Assembly: GCF_009765975.1 (NCBI RefSeq)
Contig: NZ_LMUJ01000042.1
Location: 242,243-285,429, forward strand
From: Acidisphaera sp. S103
GTDB taxonomy: Bacteria > Pseudomonadota > Alphaproteobacteria > Acetobacterales > Acetobacteraceae
DNA length: 43,187 bases
Direction: 5' to 3'
The notes below the pieces were generated by a model. That model was not told the origin of the DNA, did no database searches, and saw nothing but the letters and a program-made list of their open reading frames with translations. The position numbers were made by a program, and so were the translations under genes. Below, in pieces: positions 1 to 27,160 of this stretch (within the stretch, counting starts at the first letter, position 1; each line of letters begins with the position of its first letter).

Positions 1-399
1 CGTCGTCGCCATCTGCTGCAGCAACTCCCGCAGATGCGTGCACCCCACGGTGCCGCCGACCGCATGGGTCGCCTCCCGCAGGAACCCAGCCTTGATCTGC
101 ATGCCCTTCAGCCGGACAAAGTTGGGCGCCGCGGCCGGACACGCCGCATACGGGGTCTTATCGCTGACCGCCTCCACCCCCTGGATGATCATTTTTTCAT
201 CCACCGTCAGGCGCAGCCACATGTCGTGGACCGGGTCGCCAATATCGATATAGCCACGGTCGAAATTGGTCTGCCCAAAGCTCTTCACATCGGTCAAATG
301 CGCCTCGATGTCGAAGCATCCGTCGGCTCGGCGATACCCGTTGATCTCGATGGCACGCGTATGCAGACGCTCGCGTTCGACGGGCTGGCTCAACGGCAT
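1..399 (-). CDS. DUF2889 domain protein (3' end cut by window edge)
   Basis: The minus-strand frame opens with MPLSQPVERERLHTRAIEI at 399 and stays open to the window edge, giving 133 residues without a stop. A good ribosome site (TTAGGAG) lies just upstream of the ATG. The pattern of an N-terminal R-x-x-H-T-R-x-I segment, then GYRRADGCFDIEAHLTDVK, then a C-terminal CPAAAPNF...GTVGCTHLREL stretch matches the DUF2889 family, whose biochemical role is unknown. Cysteines in the CP and GC-TH positions are kept. The gene points away from hemA, so the two are divergent. The C-terminus lies outside the window. Confidence 0.8.
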   Translation of the reverse strand, partial: MPLSQPVERERLHTRAIEINGYRRADGCFDIEAHLTDVKSFGQTNFDRGYIDIGDPVHDMWLRLTVDEKMIIQGVEAVSDKTPYAACPAAAPNFVRLKGMQIKAGFLREATHAVGGTVGCTHLRELLQQMATT

Positions 400-799
400 G
401 CCTGACTCCTAAACGGTCGTAAATGGGACGGTCGTGGACAGATATTGCGATGCAACATGCCTCTATGACATCCCAGCCACGGCATTGCAAAGCCCGTTGA
501 CGGCATGACAGCCACGCGCCCAAATCCACCGCCCAGCATTTGATTTTTCAAGAAATGGATCGTTTCCGACAAGCGACCCGCCGTTCAGCACAGATTTCTT
601 AATTCGTGTTCATTTACGATCCCAAATTCCTGCTGGCGGCGGCCAATAGCCAGTTGACGCGAAATGCAATCGGCGCATGTTCCCGCCCGCACGCTGGAAG
701 AACGTGTGTTGATCCGGATCAATGGTTCCCGGTATGCGTCTACGTCAGACGCGCCGATCGGCTTTTCCCCGGGTTTGGCGAACTGAGGGCTCACGTAGG
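400..799. other. Intergenic region upstream of hemA
   Basis: About 400 bases separate the divergent DUF2889 and hemA genes. Short open frames here lack ribosome sites and recognisable products and were not called. The only distinct signal I see is the FNR/FixK-type palindrome at 709-722; the rest presumably holds both promoters. Confidence 0.5.
709..722. promoter_or_regulatory. FNR/FixK-type operator upstream of hemA
   Basis: TTGATCCGGATCAA is a perfect 14-base palindrome that matches the FNR/FixK consensus TTGAT-N4-ATCAA at every fixed position. It lies 78 bases before the hemA ATG. Control of hemA by FnrL/FixK proteins is known in other alphaproteobacteria, so oxygen-responsive control of heme synthesis is the likely role. 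If the site acts in the class II position, transcription would start about 40 bases downstream. Confidence 0.75.
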
Positions 800-2225: not shown

Positions 2226-4214
2226 ATGATCACCGAACTCGGCCACTTCGCGCTGATCCTGGCGCTGTTTGTCGCGGTCATTCAGTCGACGGTGCCGTTG
2301 ATTGGCGCCGCGCGTCGCCATCTGGGGTGGATGGCGGTTGGCCGGTCGTGTGCCCTGATCGGGTTCGCGCTGACGGCGCTGTCGATGCTGGCGTTGATGC
2401 ACGCCTATGTCACGTCGGACTTCACGGTGATCAACGTCGTGGAGAACAGCCACACCGACAAGCCGCTGCTGTATCAGATCACCGGAGTCTGGGGGAACCA
2501 CGAGGGTTCCATGCTGCTGTGGGTGTTCATGCTGTCGCTGTGCGCGGCCGCAGTGGCGCTGTTCAGCAACAATTTGCCTCCGGCCTTGCGTGCCCGCGTG
2601 CTGGCGGTCCAGGGCATGATCGCGGTTGGATTTCTGCTGTTCATCCTGCTGACATCCAACCCGTTCCTGCGCACGTTTCCGCCGCCGCCGAACGGTCAGG
2701 GCCTCAATCCGGTGCTGCAGGACCCTGGCCTGGCGTTCCACCCGCCGTTTCTCTACCTGGGTTATGTTGGGTTTTCGGTGGCGTTTTCCTTCGCCGTCGC
2801 CGCGCTGATCGAGGGCCGGGTCGATGCCGCCTGGGCCCGCTGGGTGCGGCCGTGGACGCTGGCGTCGTGGTGTGCGCTGACAGTCGGCATCGCGATGGGG
2901 TCCTGGTGGGCGTATTACACGCTGGGCTGGGGCGGCTGGTGGTTTTGGGACCCGGTCGAGAACGCATCCTTCATGCCGTGGCTCGTCGGCACCGCGCTGA
3001 TCCATTCGTCCATCGTGGTGGAAAAGCGCGACACGCTGAAATCCTGGACCATCCTGCTGGCGATCATCACCTTCTCGCTGTCGCTGGTCGGCACGTTCCT
3101 GGTGCGATCGGGCGTGCTGACCTCGGTGCACGCCTTCGCCACCGATCCGCAGCGGGGCATGTTCATCTTGCTGCTGCTGGTCGTCGCCATCGGCGGATCG
3201 CTGACGCTGTATGCCATACGAGCACCGGCGCTGAAGGGCGGCGGCCTGTTCGCGCCGATCTCGCGTGAGGGTGCCCTTGTCCTGAACAACGTGCTGCTGT
3301 CCTGCGGTTGCGCGACGGTATTCCTAGGCACGCTGTATCCGCTGTTCCTGGACGCCGTGGGCGGCCCGAAACTGTCGGTCGGGTTCCCATTCTTCAACCG
3401 CACCTTCGCCCCGATGATGGTGCCGATGGTGATCGCGGTCGGGATCGGCCCGATGCTGGCCTGGAAGCGCGGCGACATCCTGGGCGCGCTGCAACGCCTC
3501 TGGGTCGCCTACATCGCCACCGCCCTGGTAGTGCTGGTTGCGTTCTACGTCACCTATGGCGGGCCGGTGCTGGCGGTCCTCGGCCTGGGTCTGTCCGCTT
3601 GGCTGGCCACCGCCGTGCTGACCGAGTTCGCCGAACGCATCCGCCTGTTCCGAACCCCGTTTGGCGATAGCCTGCGCCGCGCCATCCATCTGCCCCGCGC
3701 CACATACGGCATGTCGATCGCGCATTTCGGCCTGGCAGTGTCGGTCGCCGGCTTCGCCGCGTCGGCCTGGGCGCAGGAGGCGATCCAGATCCTCCAACCC
3801 GGCGGCAGCATCGACCTCGCCGGCTACCACCTGACTTTGGAGCACGTCGACCACGTCCCCGGCCCGAATTTCTCGGCAGACGAGGCCTTCATTCGGGTCA
3901 CCAAGGCCGGAGAATTCATCGCCGAGATGCACCCGGAACGGCGCTTCTTCCCGCTGCAGCAGCAGACCACGGGTGAAACCGCGATCCGCACCAACCTGCT
4001 CGCCGACCTCTACGTCGCGCTCGGAGACTCCGACACCGCCGGCGACTGGACCGTGCGAGTGTACTGGAAGCCACTGGTGCCGTGGATCTGGATGGGCGCC
4101 ATCATCATGGCGTTCGGCGGCGTGGTCAGCCTCAGCGACCGGCGCTGGCGCGTGGGCGCGGCAGCCCGAGCCACCAGACGCGGCCCGCAACCGGTTCCCG
4201 CCGCAGGCGAGTAG
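2226..4214 (+). CDS. ccmF: Cytochrome c heme lyase subunit CcmF
   Basis: Inner-membrane protein that, with CcmH and CcmI, ligates heme delivered by holo-CcmE to apocytochrome c in the periplasm. The 662-residue length is normal. Many membrane segments are visible from the N-terminus on. The tryptophan-rich WWD signature GWGGWWFWDPVENASF sits near residue 235, with conserved VWGNHEGSMLLWV near 88 and FHPPFLYLGYVG near 172, typical heme-handling and histidine-containing regions of CcmF. The C-terminal third holds the soluble periplasmic domain followed by a last membrane helix (WIWMGAIIMAFGGVV). The next gene starts 3 bases after the stop, so the genes form one operon. ccmE and ccmABCD are not in the window. 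Confidence 0.95.
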   Translation: MITELGHFALILALFVAVIQSTVPLIGAARRHLGWMAVGRSCALIGFALTALSMLALMHAYVTSDFTVINVVENSHTDKPLLYQITGVWGNHEGSMLLWVFMLSLCAAAVALFSNNLPPALRARVLAVQGMIAVGFLLFILLTSNPFLRTFPPPPNGQGLNPVLQDPGLAFHPPFLYLGYVGFSVAFSFAVAALIEGRVDAAWARWVRPWTLASWCALTVGIAMGSWWAYYTLGWGGWWFWDPVENASFMPWLVGTALIHSSIVVEKRDTLKSWTILLAIITFSLSLVGTFLVRSGVLTSVHAFATDPQRGMFILLLLVVAIGGSLTLYAIRAPALKGGGLFAPISREGALVLNNVLLSCGCATVFLGTLYPLFLDAVGGPKLSVGFPFFNRTFAPMMVPMVIAVGIGPMLAWKRGDILGALQRLWVAYIATALVVLVAFYVTYGGPVLAVLGLGLSAWLATAVLTEFAERIRLFRTPFGDSLRRAIHLPRATYGMSIAHFGLAVSVAGFAASAWAQEAIQILQPGGSIDLAGYHLTLEHVDHVPGPNFSADEAFIRVTKAGEFIAEMHPERRFFPLQQQTTGETAIRTNLLADLYVALGDSDTAGDWTVRVYWKPLVPWIWMGAIIMAFGGVVSLSDRRWRVGAAARATRRGPQPVPAAGE

Positions 4215-4217
4215 AGC

Positions 4218-4766
4218 ATGAAACGCCTGATCTATCTGCTGCCGCTGGTGGTGTTCCTGGTGCTGGCCGCCTATCTCGGCCGGATGCTGCAACTGACGCT
4301 GCGGCCGAACTACGATATCCACGAAATACCCTCGGCCATGATCGCGAAACCGGCCCCTGCCTTCGACCTCGCCGGCCTGGCGGATGGCAAGCCCCTGGCG
4401 CTGGACGCGCTCAAGGGCCACCCGTTCGTGGTGAATTTCTTCGCCTCCTGGTGCGTGCCGTGCCGCATCGAACACCCCCTGCTGATGCGCCTGGCGACCG
4501 AGAATCACCTGCCGATCTACGGCATCGACTACAAAGACAAACCGGCAGACGGCGCCCACCTGCTGGCCACCTTCGGCGACCCGTACCGCCTGGTCGGCAT
4601 GGACCGAGACGGCAGCGTCGGCCTGAACTTCGGCGTTTACGGCGTCCCCGAGACCTACGTCATCGACAGCACCGGCATCATCCGCAAACGCTTCGTCGGC
4701 CCCCTGACCGCCGAGCAGGTGGACAAGGAACTGCTACCCCTGCTGAAGCAGTTGGGTCAGACATGA
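4218..4766 (+). CDS. ccmG: Thiol:disulfide interchange protein CcmG/DsbE
   Basis: Membrane-anchored periplasmic thioredoxin that reduces the CXXCH cysteines of apocytochrome c before heme attachment. The protein has 182 residues. Residues 4-21 form an uncleaved N-terminal anchor. The thioredoxin fold carries the active site FFASWCVPC (Cys79, Cys82) and the CcmG-typical GVYGVPETYVID with the cis-proline loop. DYKDKPADG before it matches the acidic loop of the family. The gene follows ccmF by 3 bases and its stop overlaps the ccmH ATG (ATGA at 4763-4766), which indicates translational coupling. Confidence 0.95.
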   Translation: MKRLIYLLPLVVFLVLAAYLGRMLQLTLRPNYDIHEIPSAMIAKPAPAFDLAGLADGKPLALDALKGHPFVVNFFASWCVPCRIEHPLLMRLATENHLPIYGIDYKDKPADGAHLLATFGDPYRLVGMDRDGSVGLNFGVYGVPETYVIDSTGIIRKRFVGPLTAEQVDKELLPLLKQLGQT

Positions 4767-18811: not shown

Positions 18812-19475
18812 CTGCCATGTCGCGTCCGGTCCGCCACTGACCGGTCAGCGGGTCGGCCAGCAGACCGGTGCTCAGGCCGACCCGCAACCCAGCCGAACGC
18901 AGCATCCCGGCCAGTTCCGCCGGCGTGATGAACGCTTTCCAGTCATGCGTCCCCACCGGCAGCATCCGCAGCACGTACTCCGCCCCAAGTTTACCGACGA
19001 CCCATGACCGCCTGGTCCGGTTCAGGGTGGACAGCACCAGCACGCCACCGGGTTCCAGCAACGCGGCCAGAACGCGGACAAAGGCCGCGGGGTCGGGGAC
19101 ATGCTCGATCACCTCCAACGCGGTGATGACGGGGAAACTCCGGCCCTCGGACAGAAGGTCTTCCGCCAGGCAGGCGCGATAGGTCAGGTCCATCCCCTGC
19201 CCCTCGGCATGCGCCCGGGCGGCCTGGATCGCCTCGCCGGCGGCATCGATTCCCAGGACGGCGTGACCTTTCCTGGCCAGGGCCTCGGCCGCCAGGCCCG
19301 CGCCGCAGCCGACATCCAGGATCCGGGTCGGCCCGTGCAGCAGGGCCTCGATCCAGCCGATTCGGGCCGGGTTCATCCGGTGCAGCGGCTTCATCGGGCC
19401 GTTCGGATCCCACCAGCGCGACGCCAGGCGGTCGAATTTCCCGACTTCCTCGGCCGAGACGGTACCGCTGGTCAT
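18783..19475 (-). CDS. ubiG: Ubiquinone biosynthesis O-methyltransferase UbiG
   Basis: SAM-dependent methyltransferase performing both O-methylations in ubiquinone synthesis. The 230-residue length is normal. The N-terminus EEVGKFDRLASRWWDPNGPM and PLHRMNPARIGWI is characteristic of UbiG, followed by motif I RILDVGCGAGLAAEAL, then GIDAAGEAI, and VITALEVIEHVPD. The C-terminal HDWKAFITPAEL and DMAVNYMIAAVR complete the family pattern. It is divergent from lysC with about 60 bases between starts. Confidence 0.95.
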   Translation of the reverse strand: MTSGTVSAEEVGKFDRLASRWWDPNGPMKPLHRMNPARIGWIEALLHGPTRILDVGCGAGLAAEALARKGHAVLGIDAAGEAIQAARAHAEGQGMDLTYRACLAEDLLSEGRSFPVITALEVIEHVPDPAAFVRVLAALLEPGGVLVLSTLNRTRRSWVVGKLGAEYVLRMLPVGTHDWKAFITPAELAGMLRSAGLRVGLSTGLLADPLTGQWRTGRDMAVNYMIAAVR

Positions 19476-19536
19476 GGTTGCTCCTCTTGCCTGTCATCAG
19501 TATGTGTGCGCCCGCACATCAACTTGGCAACTGTTC

Positions 19537-20766
19537 ATGGCCCGTATCGTGATGAAATTCGGCGGCACGTCCGTCGCCGACCTCGACCGTATCCGCAACG
19601 TCGCCCAGCGCGTGAAACGCGAAGTGGAGCATGGCAACGAGGTTGCCGTGGTCGTCTCCGCCATGTCCGGCGTTACCAACCAACTGGTCAAATGGTGCAC
19701 CGAGCTGTCGCCGCTGCACGATGCTCGGGAGTATGACGCGGTGGTGGCGACGGGCGAGCAGGTGACGTCGGGGCTGCTGGCAATTTGTTTGCAGTCGATG
19801 GGCATCGACGCGCGTTCCTGGCAGGGGTGGCAGATCCCGTTGCGGACCGACTCGGCGCATGGGACGGCGCGGATTCAGTCCATTGAAGGGGCCGAATTGG
19901 TGCGGAGGATGGGCACCGGGCAGGTGGCGGTGGTCGCGGGGTTCCAGGGTGTTGCGCCGGATAATCGAATCGCGACGCTGGGGCGCGGCGGGTCGGATAC
20001 CTCCGCGGTGGCGCTGGCGGCGGCTTTGAAGGCGGATCGCTGCGACATCTATACCGACGTGGATGGGGTTTATACGACCGACCCTCGGATCGTGCCGAAT
20101 GCGCGCAAGCTGGCGAAAATAGCGTATGAGGAGATGCTGGAGCTGGCATCGGTGGGCGCGAAGGTCTTGCAGACCCGCAGCGTCGAGTTGGCGATGAACG
20201 AACGGGTGCGGGTGCGGGTGCTGTCCAGCTTTTCGGACGCGCTGGCGAATGACACCGAAGGCACCCTGGTGGTGGATGAGGACGAGATCGTGGAAAAAGA
20301 GAATGTGGCCGGGATCGCGTATTCTCGGGATGAGGCGAAAATCACGGTGACGCGGGTGCCGGACCGGCCGGGCATTGCCGCCGCCATTTTCGGGCAGTTG
20401 GCGGAGCAGAACGTCAACGTCGACATGATCGTGCAGAATGTTTCCGCCGATGGGACCACGGATATGACGTTCACGGTGGGCAAGGCCGATCTGCCTCGGG
20501 CGCGGGCGGCGCTGGGCGAGATCAAGGGGCAGATCAACTACACCGAGCTGCTGGAAGACCCGAATGTCGCGAAGATCAGCGTCGTGGGGGTGGGCATGCG
20601 AAGCCACTCGGGGGTTGCCAATACGATGTTCAGTGCGCTGGCGGACAAGGCGATCAATATCCAGGTGATCTCCACCAGTGAGATCAAAGTCAGCGTGCTG
20701 ATCGCCGCGGAATATACCGAGCTGGCGGTGCGGGCGCTGCATACGGCGTATGGCCTCGATGCCTGA
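19537..20766 (+). CDS. lysC: Aspartate kinase
   Basis: Phosphorylates aspartate, the first step toward lysine, threonine, methionine and diaminopimelate. The ATG at 19537 gives 409 residues, typical of the single-function bacterial enzyme, and starts with RIVMKFGGTSVADLDRI. Further signatures: VVVSAMSGVTNQL, TLGRGGSDTSAVALAAAL and DVDGVYTTDPRIV. Two ACT domains follow (ITVTRVPDRPGIAAAIFGQL; ISVVGVGMRSHSGVANTMF), where lysine and threonine feedback usually acts. A longer frame from 19474 adds residues from the ubiG upstream side and was rejected. The end overlaps the next gene by 17 bases. Confidence 0.95.
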   Translation: MARIVMKFGGTSVADLDRIRNVAQRVKREVEHGNEVAVVVSAMSGVTNQLVKWCTELSPLHDAREYDAVVATGEQVTSGLLAICLQSMGIDARSWQGWQIPLRTDSAHGTARIQSIEGAELVRRMGTGQVAVVAGFQGVAPDNRIATLGRGGSDTSAVALAAALKADRCDIYTDVDGVYTTDPRIVPNARKLAKIAYEEMLELASVGAKVLQTRSVELAMNERVRVRVLSSFSDALANDTEGTLVVDEDEIVEKENVAGIAYSRDEAKITVTRVPDRPGIAAAIFGQLAEQNVNVDMIVQNVSADGTTDMTFTVGKADLPRARAALGEIKGQINYTELLEDPNVAKISVVGVGMRSHSGVANTMFSALADKAINIQVISTSEIKVSVLIAAEYTELAVRALHTAYGLDA

Positions 20767-21778
20767 TTTAGAAGCGGCGCGGGAGCGGCTGGACCGGCTT
20801 TGGGCTCGGGGGGCGGCGTTCTTGGGCTGCCCGTATGCGATTATGGGCGGGGCGATGAGTTGGGTCAGCGAGAAGACCCTTGTCAGCGCCATTTCCAACG
20901 CCGGCGGGTTCGGGGTGATTGCATGCGGGGCGATGTCGCCGGCGCAGTTGGCGGAACAGATCGTGGGGACTCAGGCGCTGACGGATCGGCCGTTCGGGGT
21001 GAACCTGATCACCATGCATCCGGAGCTGAATGACCTGATCCGGGTGACGCTGGAGGCTGGCGTCGGGCACATCGTGCTGGCGGGCGGGGTGCCTCCGGGG
21101 CCGGCGGTGCGGGCGGTGAAGGATGGGGGGGCGAAGCTGATCGCGTTCTCCCCTGCCCTGTCGTTGGCCAAGCGGCTGGTCCGGTCGGGGGCGGATGCGA
21201 TCGTGATCGAGGGGTCGGAAGCCGGGGGGCATATCGGGCCGGTGTCGCTGACCGTGCTGGCGCAGGAGATTCTGCCGCATTTGAAGGATGTGCCGGTGTT
21301 CGTGGCCGGTGGACTGGGACGGGGTGAGGCGATCCTGGGGTATTTGGAGATGGGAGCTTCGGGGGCTCAGTTGGGGACGCGGTTCGCGGCTTCGGAGGAG
21401 TCGATCGCGCATCCGAAATTCAAGAAGTTCTTTGTGCATGCGAACGCCAGGGATGCGATGCCTTCGGTGGAGTTGGACCCTCGGTTGCCGGTGATCCCGG
21501 TGCGGGGGTTGGTGAATGATGGGACCCGGAAGTTCCTGGAGCACCAGGCGGAGACTCGGGACAAGCTGGTGGCTGGGGCGGTGACGAAGGAAGAGGCTCA
21601 GTTGCTGGTGGAACGTTTCTGGGCCGGGGCGCTGCGGCGGGCAGTGATCGAGGGGGATATCGAGACTGGATCTGTCATGGCGGGGCAGTCTGTGGGGATG
21701 GTTACTTCGGTGCAGCCGGTGGCGGAGATCATTCAGGAGCTGATTGGTCAGGCGGTTGGGGCTTTGGCGGGGCGGTAG
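20750..21778 (+). CDS. NAD(P)H-dependent flavin oxidoreductase (nitronate monooxygenase family)
   Basis: FMN TIM-barrel enzyme of the nitronate monooxygenase/FabK-like family; the true substrate is unknown. It has 342 residues. Visible are SNAGGFGVIACGAMSP, DRPFGVNLI, VIEGSEAGGHIG (conserved EAGGH), PVFVAGGLGRGEAIL and GASGAQLGTRFAASEES, the usual phosphate-binding and barrel-end motifs. The ATG at 20750 lies inside the lysC end; an in-frame ATG at 20759 is equally possible. Coupling to lysC suggests cotranscription, not necessarily shared function. A decayed partial copy lies at 24309-24520. Confidence 0.88.
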   Translation: MASMPDLEAARERLDRLWARGAAFLGCPYAIMGGAMSWVSEKTLVSAISNAGGFGVIACGAMSPAQLAEQIVGTQALTDRPFGVNLITMHPELNDLIRVTLEAGVGHIVLAGGVPPGPAVRAVKDGGAKLIAFSPALSLAKRLVRSGADAIVIEGSEAGGHIGPVSLTVLAQEILPHLKDVPVFVAGGLGRGEAILGYLEMGASGAQLGTRFAASEESIAHPKFKKFFVHANARDAMPSVELDPRLPVIPVRGLVNDGTRKFLEHQAETRDKLVAGAVTKEEAQLLVERFWAGALRRAVIEGDIETGSVMAGQSVGMVTSVQPVAEIIQELIGQAVGALAGR

Positions 21779-21871
21779 GCAGATTTGTTTCTTATCGGAA
21801 GGATTCATGGTTCGTTAATATCCGCGGCGTAAGACCTTTCGGCGTCGGCACGAACGCCTAGGCAAGTCTTA

Positions 21872-22332
21872 TAAGGCGGATTAGCGGGATGAAGGTGGAT
21901 GAAGGGGATTTGCGGTTTTTGGCGCCGGTGACCGAACGGGTTATTGGGTGTGCTTTTCGGGTTGCCAATTTGCTCGGGCATGGGTTTGTTGAGAAGGTTT
22001 ATGAGAATGCCCTGGCGCATGAGATGCGAAAGTGTGGGCTTGGGGTCGTGCAGCAGCGGGGGATCGTGGTCTTTTATGACGGCGTGATTGTTGGCGAATA
22101 TACCGCCGATCTGCTGGTCGAGGATCAGGTTATCGTTGAACTCAAGGTTGTGGGCGCGCTGAGTGATGTGCATGTCCCGCAATGCCGGAATTACTTGCGG
22201 GCGACCGGTAAGTCGTTGTGTCTGCTGATCAATTTTGGCCAGCCCAAAGTCGAAATTCGCCGCATCACCGCTGCGGCCTGATCGCGAGCGCCATCCCTTT
22301 CATCCCCCTCTTATCCCGCCTAATCCGCCTTA
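21872..22332. mobile_element. GxxExxY cassette 1 bounded by imperfect inverted repeats
   Basis: The left edge (21872-21909) begins TAAGGCGGATTAGCGGGAT; the right edge (22291-22332), read on the other strand, begins TAAGGCGGATTAGGCGGGAT. The arms stay similar for about 38-40 bases with small gaps (GGATGAAGGGGAT against GGATGAAAGGGAT). They enclose one GxxExxY gene, and the left arm includes its first codons. No transposase is present. I infer a mobile or formerly mobile unit. Confidence 0.55.
21889..22281 (+). CDS. GxxExxY protein (PD-(D/E)XK nuclease-like), copy 1
   Basis: A 130-residue protein of the GxxExxY family, named for the motif seen here as GHGFVEKVYENALAHEM. It includes RVIGCAFRVANLLG and, toward the middle, GEYTADLLVEDQVIVELKVV, where D...E-x-K resembles the PD-(D/E)XK nuclease core (PDDEXK_3). 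The function of the family is not established; nuclease activity is inferred from fold. The first residues (KVDEGDLRF) derive from the flanking inverted repeat. It is a homologue of the gene at 23308-23700. Confidence 0.9.
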   Translation: MKVDEGDLRFLAPVTERVIGCAFRVANLLGHGFVEKVYENALAHEMRKCGLGVVQQRGIVVFYDGVIVGEYTADLLVEDQVIVELKVVGALSDVHVPQCRNYLRATGKSLCLLINFGQPKVEIRRITAAA

Positions 22333-22401
22333 AAAGAGGGGTGCTATGGCCGGGCACACGGCTTCGGGCGTCCCGGTCTTGACGGTATCCGAAGGGCGGT
22401 G

Positions 22402-23127
22402 TCACGGCGCTTGGTGGTAGCCCGGTCTGGCGGGGCTTGCGCGGCTGTTCGTGGGCAATTCGTGGTTGGCTAAACTGGATCTGGCTATGGCTTCGTGGAT
22501 GGCTTGGCGCAGGCCGGTTTCATCGGAGTGCTGCTTCCAGGGTTGGGTGCTCAACCATGTCTCAAAAGCCGCGTCCTGAGAATTTAGGTCGTCTTCTGAG
22601 ACTTGGTGTTCGATCCTGGGGGCTGAGTTCGCTGTTGGTGCCGGCTCGGGCCAGGCGGCTTGGTGGGGGGTGGCCTCCGGATCGACTGCGCCCAGCATTG
22701 AGCGTTCGGCGATGTGCAGGGTCCAGGCGTCTTGGTTGGCTGCGCCCTGCGTTGCCTCTCGCTTCTGGCGTAGGGCTTGCACCCGCATCAGGCGGGCGTG
22801 GGCGGACAGCGAGGTGCGCACCATCGATACGTATTGGGCGTTCAGGCGCATCATCAGTTGGATGTCGTCGGCGTTCTGACGGGTCAGGCGCAACATCTCC
22901 TCGGCCTGGGCCCGAGCGGCGATACACTGGGCGGCGAGATCGGCTTCGTTCGCGTTGACCGGGAGCAGCGCGGCCACCTTGGCGATGGCGGCATGGTCTC
23001 GGGTTCGCAACGCCTCCGGCGTGTCGTCAAGCGGCGGCGGCGACAGGGCGGTGAGGGTGTGGACGAGCTGGTAATATAGGTGCGTGGCGAGATCGGTGGT
23101 TTGGGGTGGTTGGGCGGAGGTTTCCAT
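22402..23127 (-). CDS. Unknown helical protein
   Basis: A 241-residue product I cannot place in a named family. Residues 1-130 are strongly helical and alanine-rich (TRDHAAIAKVAALLPVNA, EADLAAQCIAARAQAEEML, ADDIQLMMRLNAQYVSMVRT). The C-terminal half is proline-rich and looks disordered, ending in RPGYHQAP. The ATG at 23127 has a short AAGGA very close by, so the ribosome site is weak. It lies between two inverted-repeat-bounded GxxExxY cassettes and may be accessory. No signal peptide or membrane segment is visible. Confidence 0.65.
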   Translation of the reverse strand: METSAQPPQTTDLATHLYYQLVHTLTALSPPPLDDTPEALRTRDHAAIAKVAALLPVNANEADLAAQCIAARAQAEEMLRLTRQNADDIQLMMRLNAQYVSMVRTSLSAHARLMRVQALRQKREATQGAANQDAWTLHIAERSMLGAVDPEATPHQAAWPEPAPTANSAPRIEHQVSEDDLNSQDAAFETWLSTQPWKQHSDETGLRQAIHEAIARSSLANHELPTNSRASPARPGYHQAP

Positions 23128-23253
23128 TCCTTAGTGGTAGGCTAATATAGGAAATAAGTCAAGGTTTGTTGCTGCTTCTGGTTCGGTTCATCGGGCGAAC
23201 GTGGGCCGGTCGAGCCTGGCAGTGCCGCTGGATGTGCCGGCAAGGAAGAAAGC

Positions 23254-23725
23254 AAGAACCTAACGCAGATTTGGGCAAATGCACGCCGAACACGCAAATG
23301 GAGAGGATTATAGGCCGTTGGCCACGCGTTTGATCTCCATGCGTGGTTTGCCGAAGTTGAGCAGCAGGCCAAGCCGCATCCCGGATGCTTTGAGGTAATT
23401 GAGGCATTGGGCGTGATGCGCCTCGTCCAATGCTTTCGTGGCCTTCAATTCGACCAGAAGCGCCTGCTCGATCATCAGGTCGATGACGTACTCACCAACC
23501 ACCATGCCATCATACAGAACCGAGACGCCGTGCTGCTGCACGACAGCCAGGCCGGCTTTCCGCAATTCATGCGCCAAGGCGTTTTCATACACCTTTTCCA
23601 GAAAACCGGCGCCGAGGGCATTGAGGACAATAAGGGCACAACCAATGACTCGTCTCGATAGGTCATTCAGCCTATTTTCATCTGCGTGTTCCGCGTGCAT
23701 CGGCTTCCATCTGCGTTAGGTTCTT
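23254..23725. mobile_element. GxxExxY cassette 2 bounded by 47-base inverted repeats
   Basis: The left edge 23254-23300 and the right edge 23679-23725 (read on the minus strand) both start AAGAACCTAACGCAGAT (17 of 17 identical) and match at 39 of 47 positions overall, including ATGCACGC and AACACGCA. They enclose a single gene on the minus strand; the right arm supplies its first codons (MHAEHAD). The terminal sequence differs from cassette 1, but the plan is the same. Confidence 0.65.
23308..23700 (-). CDS. GxxExxY protein (PD-(D/E)XK nuclease-like), copy 2
   Basis: A 130-residue paralogue of the gene at 21889-22281, opposite in orientation. It has RRVIGCALIVLNALGAG, the naming motif GAGFLEKVYENALAHELRK, and VIDLMIEQALLVELKATKAL with the D...E-x-K triad of the nuclease-like core. 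LGLLLNFGKPRMEIKRV is the usual family end. The N-terminal MHAEHADENRLN is encoded by the flanking repeat, as often seen for this family. Activity is unknown. Confidence 0.9.
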   Translation of the reverse strand: MHAEHADENRLNDLSRRVIGCALIVLNALGAGFLEKVYENALAHELRKAGLAVVQQHGVSVLYDGMVVGEYVIDLMIEQALLVELKATKALDEAHHAQCLNYLKASGMRLGLLLNFGKPRMEIKRVANGL

Positions 23726-23787
23726 TCTACGCGATGCTGCCAGCAAAGACTTGCCAAAGGATTAACGCGCCGTCGCCCCGAAGCCGC

Positions 23788-24195
23788 TTATTGGCCGATG
23801 ATGCGGGCCGCCTGCACATAGGTGAAACCGCCCTCGCCCGGCCAGGCTCGGCCGTCGGGATAGCGCAGTTCTGTTCCGGCGAGGTCCTTGTCATCCGCCA
23901 GGCGGGCGTTGACGCCCATATGGGTGTTTCCGAACCTCGACACGGCGCTGTCGGTCAGGATGAAGTGCGTCGTCGAGCCGCAATTGGCGCAGAACCGGAT
24001 TTCCGCGGCCGGGTCTGCTTTGTCTGTCCGGCGATATCCGTTCGTTGGTCCGTCGATGCTGACGTCCGAGGGATGGAAATAGGCCCAGCGCGCGCCCGAT
24101 TTGCTGCAGAGGGTGCAATTGCACTCATTGATGAAGTCCGGTCGCCTTGGGATTTCTAAGCGGACCTGGCCGCAGAGGCACGAGAGCTTCACCAT
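23788..24195 (-). CDS. GFA-family zinc protein
   Basis: A 135-residue protein of the GFA family (glutathione-dependent formaldehyde-activating enzyme-like; the name does not predict substrate). All seven expected zinc cysteines are visible: CLCG (Cys6, Cys8), CNCTLC (Cys25, 27, 30) and FCANCG (Cys69, Cys72), followed by GSTTHFI. The ATG at 24195 immediately precedes GTG-AAG. It is a single gene downstream of cassette 2. Most family members have unproven function. Confidence 0.88.
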   Translation of the reverse strand: MVKLSCLCGQVRLEIPRRPDFINECNCTLCSKSGARWAYFHPSDVSIDGPTNGYRRTDKADPAAEIRFCANCGSTTHFILTDSAVSRFGNTHMGVNARLADDKDLAGTELRYPDGRAWPGEGGFTYVQAARIIGQ

Positions 24196-24308
24196 CCCCG
24201 TATCATATCAGGAGAGCTGTCGTGCCGGTAGCCGCGGGTTGGTTTCCCACCACCTTTGCCGTCGTAGCTCGGCCGCGCCCGGTACCAGGTGTCAGATTTT
24301 GACCACCA

Positions 24309-24520
24309 GGTTCGCGGCGTCGGAGGAGTCGATCGCGCATCCAAAATTCGAGAGATTCTTTGTCATGCGAATGCGCGGGATGCGGTGCCCTCGGTGAAGT
24401 TATACCCCAGGCTGCCGGTGATCCCGACGCGGGTTTTCGGGAGGGTGACAAAAAAGAGGCGCAGTCACTGATGGGACGTTTCTGGGCCGGGGCGCTGTGG
24501 CTGGCGGTAGGGATGACGCA
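24309..24520 (+). pseudogene. Decayed partial copy of the nitronate monooxygenase-like gene
   Basis: The stretch begins GGTTCGCGGCGTCGGAGG and parallels 21384 onward of the intact gene: TRFAASEESIAHPKFERFF, then after a frame change HANARDAVPSVKLYPRLPVI, then with an internal deletion GRFWAGALWLAVG. The frame shifts at least once and both ends of the gene are missing. It is a relic of a segmental duplication, about 3 kb from the source. Confidence 0.8.
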
Positions 24521-24829
24521 GCCACGCAGGAAATGAGATTATTCTCGTTTCGAGTATTCAGCCCCAACTACCGAGGTTCGGCCCAGAAACGGAATGGCGG
24601 CTCCGGAGTGAACTGAACCGAAGCCCGCCATTCGCTCTGCCTTGACGCCGTTCAGCCGGCTTCGATCCAAAGCGAACGAATATACATGTTGGGTCCTACC
24701 GCGCTCGAATCATTCGCTCATATCGCGTCAACGTGGGCGGTGGATCAAGCCGAACATATGGAAGCGCAGGATTGACGCCCCTAGGGTCTGGTGACAGGTT
24801 CTACAAACACAGTGGTCGGAGATCTTTCC
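24521..24829. other. Gap with one inverted repeat
   Basis: I see no gene here. GAATGGCGG at 24592-24600 and CCGCCATTC at 24625-24633 could form a 9-pair stem with a 24-base loop. The base composition shifts from GC-rich to more AT-rich across this gap. Confidence 0.4.
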
Positions 24830-25564
24830 ATGAAGGTTCGCGAGGCCATCCGGCAATCTTTGTCTGCTTCTTGTCGCGCAGACGGTGTTAAATGCTTCCC
24901 TACGATCTCGATTGAGCCGTCGGGCATCTCAATACGGAGAGGCAAAGAGCCAGCTGCTGACGTGGCGCTTCGCTATTATTTGGCTCATGGCTTTGCAGGC
25001 GATCGCAGTCGTATGAATGTGCATGGTTATGCCAAAATACTTCGGGATCTTCAAACACCTCCACCGTGGGTAACTGTTGAAATGGAGGATAGTATAGGAA
25101 CACTTTCGCCGGCGAGAGCCTTACAACTTAGCCCGTTATCACAACAAATAACAGACGTCGATGACGGAGCAATATTAGCGAGGTTTGACGAACATCAGAA
25201 GCAAAAATGGGCTACGACGGCGGAAATACTGAAGAATGTCGACTCAAGTTTCATTACGAGTGCGATGGAACGCGATCGTCAGGAGTTCTATAATCTTATT
25301 GCTTTGGGTAAAATTCTCGGACCGGATAGGTCCTCCACATTGTACGAGGCTGTGTTCGACGAAGTCGAGGAAATTTATGAAGACATAATTGTAGCTGCAG
25401 GATCACCCGATCTGCTGGTGTGGTCACCGGATCCAGAGCGAGGGTTTTGGTTCTTTTCGGAGGTTAAGGCGCAAGGTGACTCGCTAAGTGCAAGCCAAAA
25501 AGCCTGGTTGGATCAGAATTGGGAGACAGTCCAGGGCCATTATCTGATCACGACGTTCGGGTGA
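24830..25564 (+). CDS. VRR-NUC-like nuclease-domain protein
   Basis: A 244-residue protein whose C-terminus fits a VRR-NUC type PD-(D/E)XK domain: GSPDLLVWSPDP, then FFSEVKAQGDSLSASQKAWL, giving the D, E-x-K and Q positions. The N-terminal 180 residues are not recognised (ALRYYLAHGFAGDRSRMNVH; KNVDSSFITSAMERDRQEFY). The ATG at 24830 has CGGAGA upstream; a GTG at 24791 is less likely. Codon use is more AT-rich than in neighbours, which suggests transfer. It stands alone, with no helicase or modification partner. VRR-NUC domains act in DNA repair, restriction and phage genes; the role here is unknown. Confidence 0.72.
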   Translation: MKVREAIRQSLSASCRADGVKCFPTISIEPSGISIRRGKEPAADVALRYYLAHGFAGDRSRMNVHGYAKILRDLQTPPPWVTVEMEDSIGTLSPARALQLSPLSQQITDVDDGAILARFDEHQKQKWATTAEILKNVDSSFITSAMERDRQEFYNLIALGKILGPDRSSTLYEAVFDEVEEIYEDIIVAAGSPDLLVWSPDPERGFWFFSEVKAQGDSLSASQKAWLDQNWETVQGHYLITTFG

Positions 25565-25608
25565 AAGACATTTTCACGAGAGAAAGGTAACTTCTCAACC
25601 GGGCTGAA

Positions 25609-25864
25609 TTACGACCCCCCGTCTAGGACGTCCAGAATTGCCTGATATGCATCTGTGCCCCGGTCGTGCGGCAGTGCCGACGACCACTCGTACGATGGCG
25701 ACCAGATCGGCGCCCCGCTGGGGGCGGAGGCTGCCCGTGAGCTTGCGGTAGGTAGCTGTCGAGCGCAATGCCCGTTCGCTGCTGTCGTTGTCAGGCAGTG
25801 CGTCGGGATGTTCGAAGAAGGAAAACAAGTGGCTGCGTACTTTAGCGCCCTTTCGCCGCAACAA
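25609..25864 (-). pseudogene. IS66 transposase C-terminal remnant
   Basis: The minus-strand frame reads HPDALPDNDSSERALRSTAT and RKLTGSLRPQRGADLVAIVR, the pattern of the IS66-family transposase DDE end (LP-NN-x-ER-LR). The frame is then lost; the natural ending AYQAILDVLDGGS with a TAA at 25609-25611 is readable in another frame. The upstream three quarters of the gene are absent. Confidence 0.75.
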
Positions 25865-26873
25865 GCCGGCTAATCTCAGGATCCGTCTCGCCGGCAGAGC
25901 GGATGAAGACGCTCAATTCACAGTAGCGGCCAATCTCCGATCGGCTAAGCGAGAACGCCTTCTTTAAATGTACCTTTGCTTCAGCGAATTGCCGCTGCGA
26001 CAAATATAACGTCGCCCGGTCATACTCGACCACTGCCCGCTCCCCGGCTAAACCAGCCCACCATTCAGCGGCTTCAAAGCGCTTCAATGCTGCCTCTACG
26101 TTGCCCTGAAGTCCGAGCGTGAGTCCATAGTTAGCGAGAGTTACTGCGTCAGCACCACGGGTGGCTATCGCCGTTTCGAGAAGCTTTCCAGCGTCCTCGA
26201 TCAGACCCTGCTGGAGATAGAGGAAAGCAGTGTTGTTTAGATTCGGCCTTGTAGGCAAGCGCCTGCCGACAAACGTTGTCAGTATCGGCAGTATGAACCT
26301 CATACCGAAAAGTGGAAAAAAAGCGACGATTGCCATTATCCCAGTCAAGATGACCCGCGACGTTTTTGAAAATTTGTTGTCGTCATCCGGATGCAGAGAC
26401 GACAAAGCAACCAATTCACCTAGCGAATCATTGCTCTGGACTCCGATTGTTGGTAATAAGTCGCTATATCGATGTTCGCCGGATTCTTTAACGAGCATCG
26501 AAATCGTCGCGGACTCGGTCGCGGAGAAGTCATCTATGGTGACATCTAGATGTCCGCCAGACGAAGCGTCCTTAAATGTTGCTGCTGGCCCCGACGAAAG
26601 GATAATTCTTTTATCTTGCACTGAAGCTATCTGCCCAAAATCAGCCGCGACTCTCAGGTTATGAGCGGATTTAGTCCCGATATTTTTAACGACTAGCGTT
26701 ACAAATCTGAGGTCGCCTTGGCTTGACGCAAATGTAGCCGAGTTCTCTACATAATATATAATTTTCTCAGCCTCGACTCTTTTATCGCGTGTGAAATAGA
26801 ATACGAATATTCCAGCAATAATCGCGACCAATAAGCTGATCAAAGCCGTTAAAAGGGTTTCTTTCCATTTCAT
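25842..26873 (-). CDS. Membrane protein with TPR-like repeats
   Basis: A 343-residue protein of unknown family. It starts with a membrane helix (TLLTALISLLVAIIAGIFVF), has a beta-rich extracytoplasmic domain (residues about 45-160, e.g. RFVTLVVKNIGTKSAHNLRV), a second helix (VILTGIMAIVAFFPLFGM), and a cytoplasmic C-terminal part with TPR-like helices (NNTAFLYLQQGLIEDAGKLL, TLANYGLTLGLQGNVEAAL). Its last codons (AAKGR) lie in the IS66 remnant, so the original C-terminus may be lost. The start codon overlaps the stop of the recombinase fragment (ATGA). Base composition is AT-rich relative to the surroundings. No function is proposed. Confidence 0.7.
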   Translation of the reverse strand: MKWKETLLTALISLLVAIIAGIFVFYFTRDKRVEAEKIIYYVENSATFASSQGDLRFVTLVVKNIGTKSAHNLRVAADFGQIASVQDKRIILSSGPAATFKDASSGGHLDVTIDDFSATESATISMLVKESGEHRYSDLLPTIGVQSNDSLGELVALSSLHPDDDNKFSKTSRVILTGIMAIVAFFPLFGMRFILPILTTFVGRRLPTRPNLNNTAFLYLQQGLIEDAGKLLETAIATRGADAVTLANYGLTLGLQGNVEAALKRFEAAEWWAGLAGERAVVEYDRATLYLSQRQFAEAKVHLKKAFSLSRSEIGRYCELSVFIRSAGETDPEISRLVAAKGR

Positions 26874-27160
26874 TGGAATAACCTCGCCGACAGTAGCCGC
26901 AATCTGGCTCCGACGCGTTGCATATCGAGAGCGTTGACCAGATGGTCAATCGTGTCACACGACACGCTGTCAACTTCGGGGACCGCCACCACGTCGCCGG
27001 CGGCAAGCTTCGCCACCTGTGTCTTACGCCGGGGCTGATCGGCCATCGCGACGCTGATCTTTTGGCAAAAAGGAGCCTTACACCCTGCGGCCTGGAACTG
27101 AGCCACTTGGTTGAAGAGACCTTGAACGTCGGTCGAAACGCGGGCGTAGCCGTAAATCAT
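26870..27160 (-). pseudogene. Serine recombinase (resolvase) N-terminal fragment
   Basis: The first residues MIYGYARVSTDVQ match the resolvase/invertase catalytic N-terminus, with Ser9 kept, and AGDVVAVPEVDSV corresponds to the AGDVV-x-x-RLDRL region. The arginines expected there (RLDRLARS) are replaced, and the protein ends at 96 residues, without the rest of the catalytic domain or the DNA-binding helix-turn-helix. It is very probably inactive. Its stop overlaps the ATG of the membrane/TPR gene. Confidence 0.75.

Follow-up and report, generated by a model that had tools for sequence, protein, structure and literature searches.

In REP/REPIN-RAYT systems, which combine repetitive extragenic palindromes (REPs) and REP doublets forming hairpins (REPINs) with a REP-associated tyrosine transposase (RAYT), two papers (PMC3116915, PMC8266576) describe a gene with inverted repeats on its borders, dispersed doublets in inverted orientation, repeat abundance linked to the gene, co-evolution of enzyme and repeat, mostly single-copy occurrence, and housekeeping-like behavior. 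Two genes of the GxxExxY family, each lying between its own pair of inverted repeats (elements 1 and 2, Table 1), were analyzed in a stretch of 43,187 nucleotides from contig NZ_LMUJ01000042.1 of Acidisphaera sp. S103, hereafter the window. In the portions of the literature returned by searches that had subscription papers and preprints outside their scope, GxxExxY proteins received a passing mention in one passage, and neither their role nor a pairing with arrays was described. A GxxExxY gene and the arrays of short repeats surrounding it probably form a cognate pair, similar to RAYT and REP with an unrelated enzyme, in which the protein would act in trans on the arrays. The association of gene and repeat, together with the extra repeat copies, suggests an independent counterpart of the REP/RAYT partnership.

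Profile searches assigned both window proteins to TIGR04256 and PF13366 (GxxExxY, PDDEXK_3), a family of PD-(D/E)XK nucleases, with 133.9 and 140.1 bits for proteins 1 and 2 in TIGR04256 (curated cut-off, 35) and 130.6 and 138.4 bits in PF13366 (curated cut-off, 22). The two proteins are 54% identical. The best matches of the predicted structure of protein 2 (pLDDT 95) include Cas4, R.SwaI, and Hjc, residues D74, E84, and K86 are invariant in one alignment (A1) and invariant or almost so in another (A2), and a PD-(D/E)XK fold with catalytic residues is predicted for the window proteins. They differ from Cas4 and the RecB family in having only 130 aa, in that a scan of seven window open reading frames (ORFs) with Pfam and NCBIfam gave no CRISPR gene, and in that a sequence search with a window protein gave no PDB chain below E 0.06 (best E, 0.061). 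PADLOC gave weak Cas4b matches only for protein 2 (best E, 0.004) and none for protein 1. No match to an HUH/Y1 tyrosine transposase was found, Pfam and NCBIfam returning the PD-(D/E)XK family alone for both proteins.

The original prediction of two homologous cassettes, each with its own, different inverted repeat, was upheld. The arms are 43 to 50 nt long, and their local-alignment scores of 56 (element 1) and 57 (element 2) exceeded the best score of 33 reached for each element in 1,000 dinucleotide shuffles. Arm sequence types differ between the elements (AAGGCGGATTAGCGGGAT... versus AACCTAACGCAGAT...CACGCGGAACACGCAGATG). In both genes, the upstream arm covers the listed ATG and roughly seven initial codons, and the repeat thus supplies the first codons, as had been proposed.

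Outside the window, GxxExxY proteins were found in 23/40 genomes of relatives, 20/81 Chloroflexota genomes, and 8/52 Luteimonas genomes; with protein 2 as the query, there was no match in phages and a match in 8 of 72,556 plasmid records. The cross-phylum sample comprised the best 80 of at least 565 confirmed candidates from a scan with a single peptide pattern, picked by likeness to the query, and therefore leans to window protein 2; 79 loci were used after one with too little flank (L119) had been dropped. At 62 of these loci, the inverted repeat scored higher than any of 100 shuffles, and 60 of the 62 had a score of at least 30, which was reached by 2/284 shifted positions in the same loci and 15/470 arm pairs from different loci. 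Repeats were likewise present at 25 of 30 Chloroflexota loci, taken as the best family matches from the 20 gene-positive genomes; this sample overlaps the cross-phylum one at two places (L269 with L172, L288 with L138) and holds some near-duplicates. In the genome of the window, 19 of the 22 rows analyzed had an inverted repeat with a score of at least 35 (absent for L007, L010, and L019). Among relatives at the genus and class level, by contrast, only 8 of 27 loci, the best matches to a hidden Markov model (HMM), had one (a 28th locus, L083, had too little flank), which makes the link between repeat and gene lineage dependent. The systematic link predicted between GxxExxY proteins and flanking repeats thus stood in three samples and failed in the fourth, where most of the genes lacked inverted repeats.

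The arms are mostly short tandem arrays, for example, ACCGCAGATGAACGCAGAT, ACCGCCAAGACGCCAAG, and CACGAATTAACACGAAT, and a significant period of 8 to 10 nt was detected in 41/59 cross-phylum arms. By eye, none of the observed array units, such as ACGCAGAT, CACGGAT, and CGCCAAG, has a GTAG tag. Of the 60 repeat-flanked loci in the cross-phylum sample, 39 have at most 40 nt from upstream arm to conserved core; among those 39, an in-frame start (ATG, GTG, or TTG) is inside the arm in 22, and no other start occurs from arm to core in 14. A start codon within the repeat arm is common, not universal.

Repeat sequence co-varied with protein lineage, also between phyla, in agreement with the original prediction. 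The correlation of protein and arm distances was r = 0.45 over 52 cross-phylum loci (Mantel test; score of at least 35, arm of at least 24 nt), 0.42 over 56 loci when only downstream arms outside the ORF were used, 0.38 over the 1,415 between-phylum pairs (phylum labels assigned by the author), and 0.47 over 23 loci from Chloroflexota alone, with P = 0.0002 in each case (5,000 permutations); the 56- and 23-locus tests required a score of at least 30 and 20 nt outside the ORF. Noncoding arms were still alike between different phyla at protein distances of 0.3 to 0.4 (L134-L154, L130-L170, and L107-L108), which points to a functional match. Within the window genome, where the repeats were sorted into four types (labels assigned by the author), the nearest protein neighbor had the same repeat type in 19/19 cases (permutation mean, 7.0; P = 1e-4), a match that common descent of the copies alone could explain.

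Arrays also occur without the gene. The CGCCAAG array pattern was found 4 to 69 times per genome in five genomes (controls, 0 to 3), and no GxxExxY gene was seen at 44 of the 47 loci parsed around its matches (L234 to L236 excluded), some of which hold short palindromes, while some are repeats of one place or look like chance matches in coding DNA. In Luteimonas, 28 of the 34 array pairs parsed are gene-less, spanning 112 to 335 bp, and 6 contain the gene. Gene-less palindromes consist of an array, a spacer, and the mirrored array, nested in some cases (L429, L435, and L438), and at a given site they are present, absent, or reduced to a remnant depending on the species. The two arms are identical in 15/34 pairs versus 30/1,122 cross pairs. 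A further repeat, TGTAGGAGCAGCTACAGCTGCGA with variants, which we take to be a REP family of these bacteria, was seen at seven Luteimonas loci (L450, L453, L455, L460, L461, L464, and L465), sometimes within array palindromes.

The abundance of arrays, counted as pattern matches with several per palindrome, followed the presence of the gene. The eight gene-positive Luteimonas genomes, with one gene copy each, had 212, 209, 179, 166, 105, 61, 14, and 9 matches (median, 135.5, versus 3.5 in the 44 genomes without the gene; P = 1e-5), and 43 of the 44 gene-negative genomes had 1 to 21. The genome with nine matches (G169) has a gene associated with another unit, which also forms gene-less palindromes on either side of this gene. 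In Chloroflexota, at least 10 triple-array matches were counted in 16/20 gene-positive versus 3/61 gene-negative genomes (P = 1e-10; medians, 59.5 versus 0) and, for genomes of at least 2.7 Mb, in 16/20 versus 1/38; the highest count was 541 in one genome.

In seven of the eight gene-positive Luteimonas genomes, the gene occupies one shared intergenic site between two conserved genes. Among the 41 sites read between these genes, 7 have the gene with its arrays, 9 are clean empty sites, 1 retains a right-arm remnant, and 1 has a truncated copy. At the remaining 23, there is a longer gene-less spacer, an insert that looks VOC-like by eye, or another cassette with inverted repeats. The clean empty sites, with 9 to 34 bp between the genes, show no array by eye, one gene-bearing site having been studied. 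In Arenimonas (L137), the gene occupies the same position; in another gammaproteobacterium (L126), it adjoins the same downstream gene and has approximately 1.1 kb of different DNA to its left. Gene distance tracks flank distance at the shared site (r = 0.76; 36 pairs, 9 taxa), consistent with an ancient gene passed on vertically and frequently lost. By eye, the Luteimonas sites showed no clear target-site duplication, the species compared being too diverged for a firm reading.

At the same site, locus L375 carries a DUF559 gene (positions 176-664, minus strand; PF04480, E 1.7e-38) within its own inverted repeat, CCCTCCCCTTCAAGGGGAGGGTTGGGTGGGGATGG, into which the ORF extends. DUF559-like inserts were recognized by eye at L369, L370, L377, and L388, and a possible remnant at L351, the profile check covering L375.

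The window genome (G000, 8.37 Mb) has 32 TIGR04256 matches, corresponding to 27 copies after merging of fragments, and 9 of the 32 rows contain in-frame stops. The 22 best-scoring rows were analyzed; of the remaining 10, 3 come from analyzed copies and 7 from five additional copies, some of them inspected as well. Forty instances of the type A arm pattern were counted (none for the reversed control), and 32 of these arms form 16 inward-facing pairs, 11 of approximately 455 bp and the others mostly shorter. Some short pairs (L072 and L075) retain the start and end of the gene and are internal deletions. The type A copies share sequence outside the repeats, and the copied unit is therefore larger than the repeat-to-repeat cassette. 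Within a query covering window positions 19400 to 26900, element 1 matches in this genome start at query positions 2396 to 2398 or 2436 and end at 2936 to 2953, one longer match on C81 being a larger duplicate, and element 2 matches at G000:C40, G005:C98, and G021:C48 cover 3848 to 4369. Among the matches listed, no simple empty site for the window elements was seen in 24 other genomes of the genus, since the homology ends at or before the stop codon of the nitronate monooxygenase gene.

We favor a reading that builds on features documented by sequence comparison, namely, arrays in inverted orientation that match the lineage of the protein, are dispersed, and are abundant in genomes carrying the gene. 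The GxxExxY protein would be a minimal Cas4/RecB-like PD-(D/E)XK nuclease recognizing its own short unit, typically of 8 to 10 nt, where short tandem arrays of it are paired in inverted orientation, and acting in trans so that gene-less palindromes of this array are spread or maintained in the chromosome. The gene would sit inside one such palindrome, often the source of its start codon. It would be single-copy and old in hosts such as Luteimonas, and in hosts such as that of the window the gene-bearing units themselves would have multiplied, many of them decaying later. The likeness to REP/RAYT extends to a gene bordered by inverted repeats (60/79, 25/30, and 19/22 loci, but 8/27), to dispersed arrays, including inverted doublets, to an array abundance that correlates with the gene with the exceptions named below, to co-variation of enzyme and repeat, and to an enzyme that is single-copy in Luteimonas and rare on plasmids. 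The enzyme, however, is a PD-(D/E)XK nuclease and not an HUH tyrosine transposase, the repeats are tandem arrays of mostly 8- to 10-nt units whereas most REPs are GTAG-tagged palindromes of 20 to 50 nt, and the GxxExxY gene itself is multicopy in some genomes. Because both enzyme and repeats differ, the protein is not a RAYT, though it would work like one. We are evenly divided on whether GxxExxY nucleases and their arrays constitute an independent, phylum-spanning replicator system that arose apart from REP/RAYT, with other small nucleases, such as DUF559 in its own inverted repeat, as parallel cases. The link to arrays provides the GxxExxY protein with a substrate that can be tested and the repeats with a candidate for what drives them. 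Should the nuclease spread or maintain them, REP/RAYT-like partnerships would have evolved more than once with differing enzyme chemistry, and a second independent case would be at hand for studying what retains such enzymes in genomes.

The cassettes had originally been seen as classical mobile mini-elements, self-contained units moved by the nuclease with the inverted repeats as transposon ends. The approximately 27 copies at scattered sites of the window genome, some with in-frame stops, the internally deleted copies retaining both ends (e.g., L075), and arms that match each other within each locus are as expected of such an element. The duplicated unit of the window genome, however, extends past the repeats, and in Luteimonas the gene remains single-copy, at one site in 7/8 genomes, among up to 212 array matches and dispersed gene-less palindromes of the same array. 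Gene distance there follows flank distance, as under vertical inheritance, and target-site duplications were not evident by eye. PD-(D/E)XK nucleases cut DNA and are not known to join it, nor is strand transfer known for such an enzyme acting alone. We regard this explanation as improbable; the Luteimonas pattern is closer to that of REP/RAYT than to an insertion sequence. Homing-like spread, in which gene-less palindromes are cut and repair of the break copies the gene into them, has in its favor the sporadic presence of the gene at one site across species, the nested palindromes, and a gene-less palindrome beside a gene-bearing one of the same unit (L443). A small nuclease and sporadic presence at a fixed site are shared with homing endonuclease genes, and inverted array pairs as part of the unit are a difference from them. 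No array was seen by eye at the nine clean empty sites, and the gene remains in one copy where arrays are numerous, which leaves this route very unlikely.

Mobilization of a larger unit by an ordinary transposase, the nuclease cassette being a passenger of a miniature inverted-repeat transposable element (MITE), is suggested by type B copies in G045 (L247, L248, and L253), which share outer sequence with the ends CTAGTACCTCTGC.../...GCAGAGGTACTAG by eye and are possibly cassette-carrying MITEs; the ends may resemble those of IS630-type MITEs. MITEs and other small elements ending in inverted repeats are similar in their short noncoding units, some internally deleted, but the GxxExxY cassette has no transposase of a known class, its arms are matched within each palindrome, and target-site duplication is not evident. 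As this explanation leaves both the match of array to protein lineage across phyla and the tracking of the gene by the arrays unexplained, and as no such outer unit was seen by eye at the Luteimonas site, it is hardly credible. A host function, with the arrays as regulatory or chromosome-maintenance sites and the nuclease as their housekeeping processor and not a driver of spread, would agree with the signs of long vertical persistence at one intergenic site and with the near absence from phages and plasmids. It fits poorly with the turnover of palindromes between related species, the decayed copies in the window genome, and a gene present in only 8/52 Luteimonas genomes, and we give it very little weight.

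Several observations weigh against the cognate-pair reading itself. Recognition, cleavage, and dispersal or maintenance of the arrays by the nuclease are what we infer from association only, and array counts were set against the presence of the GxxExxY gene alone. In the cross-phylum sample, 17/79 loci failed to beat the shuffles and 18/59 arms had no significant period of 8 to 10 nt; among the genus and class relatives, 19/27 loci had no inverted repeat with a score of 30 within 250 nt. The Chloroflexota correlation drops to r = 0.29 once close pairs are removed, and dissimilar arms occur in some pairs of closely similar proteins (L171-L173, L175-L176, and, compared on one strand, L127-L129). 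The Luteimonas count test is not independent by species, because seven of the eight gene-positive genomes fall in one clade (flank tree from 29 of the 52 Luteimonas genomes and two other loci); one genome in which no gene was found has 58 matches (G178) and one with the gene only 14 (G171). In Chloroflexota, three genomes without the gene have 15 to 29 matches (G047, G060, and G097), and four with it have 0 to 4 (G068, G077, G086, and G091), in three of which the unit beside a gene does not match the pattern used (G068, G086, and G091; loci L277, L281, and L278). The reversed control, otherwise at 0 to 3 per genome, reached 138 in G106 and 100 in G109. Finally, the duplicated unit of the window genome is larger than the repeats.

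Table 1 Features of the two GxxExxY elements in the window
Feature	Position	Strand	Remarks
GxxExxY gene 1	21889-22281	+	130 aa; TIGR04256 E 3.2e-39, PF13366 E 4.6e-38
GxxExxY gene 2	23308-23700	-	130 aa; TIGR04256 E 3.7e-41, PF13366 E 1.8e-40; predicted structure pLDDT 95
Element 1 upstream inverted-repeat arm (type A array)	21867-21909	+	Overlaps first codons; score 56
Element 1 downstream inverted-repeat arm	22293-22337	-	
Element 2 upstream arm (type B array)	23679-23728	-	Overlaps first codons; score 57
Element 2 downstream arm	23251-23300	+	
Element 1, longest stretch common to scattered type A copies in the window genome	21795-22352	+	Extends past the inverted repeats, mostly on the 5' side
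Element 2, longest stretch common to copies elsewhere in the genome and genus	23247-23768	-	Approximately 40 bp past the 5' arm, 4 bp past the 3' arm

Between the two elements, a 241-aa ORF (22402-23127, minus strand) had no match in Pfam or NCBIfam, and DNA similar to approximately positions 22692-23162 occurs many times in relatives of the genus (e.g., G005, G010, G012, and G013) as an uncharacterized multicopy family. The nitronate monooxygenase gene (20750-21778) is partially repeated, in broken form, at 24310-24500, as recognized by eye. Near both elements, an ORF at 24791-25564 on the plus strand encodes a VRR-NUC nuclease domain (PF08774, E 2e-8).
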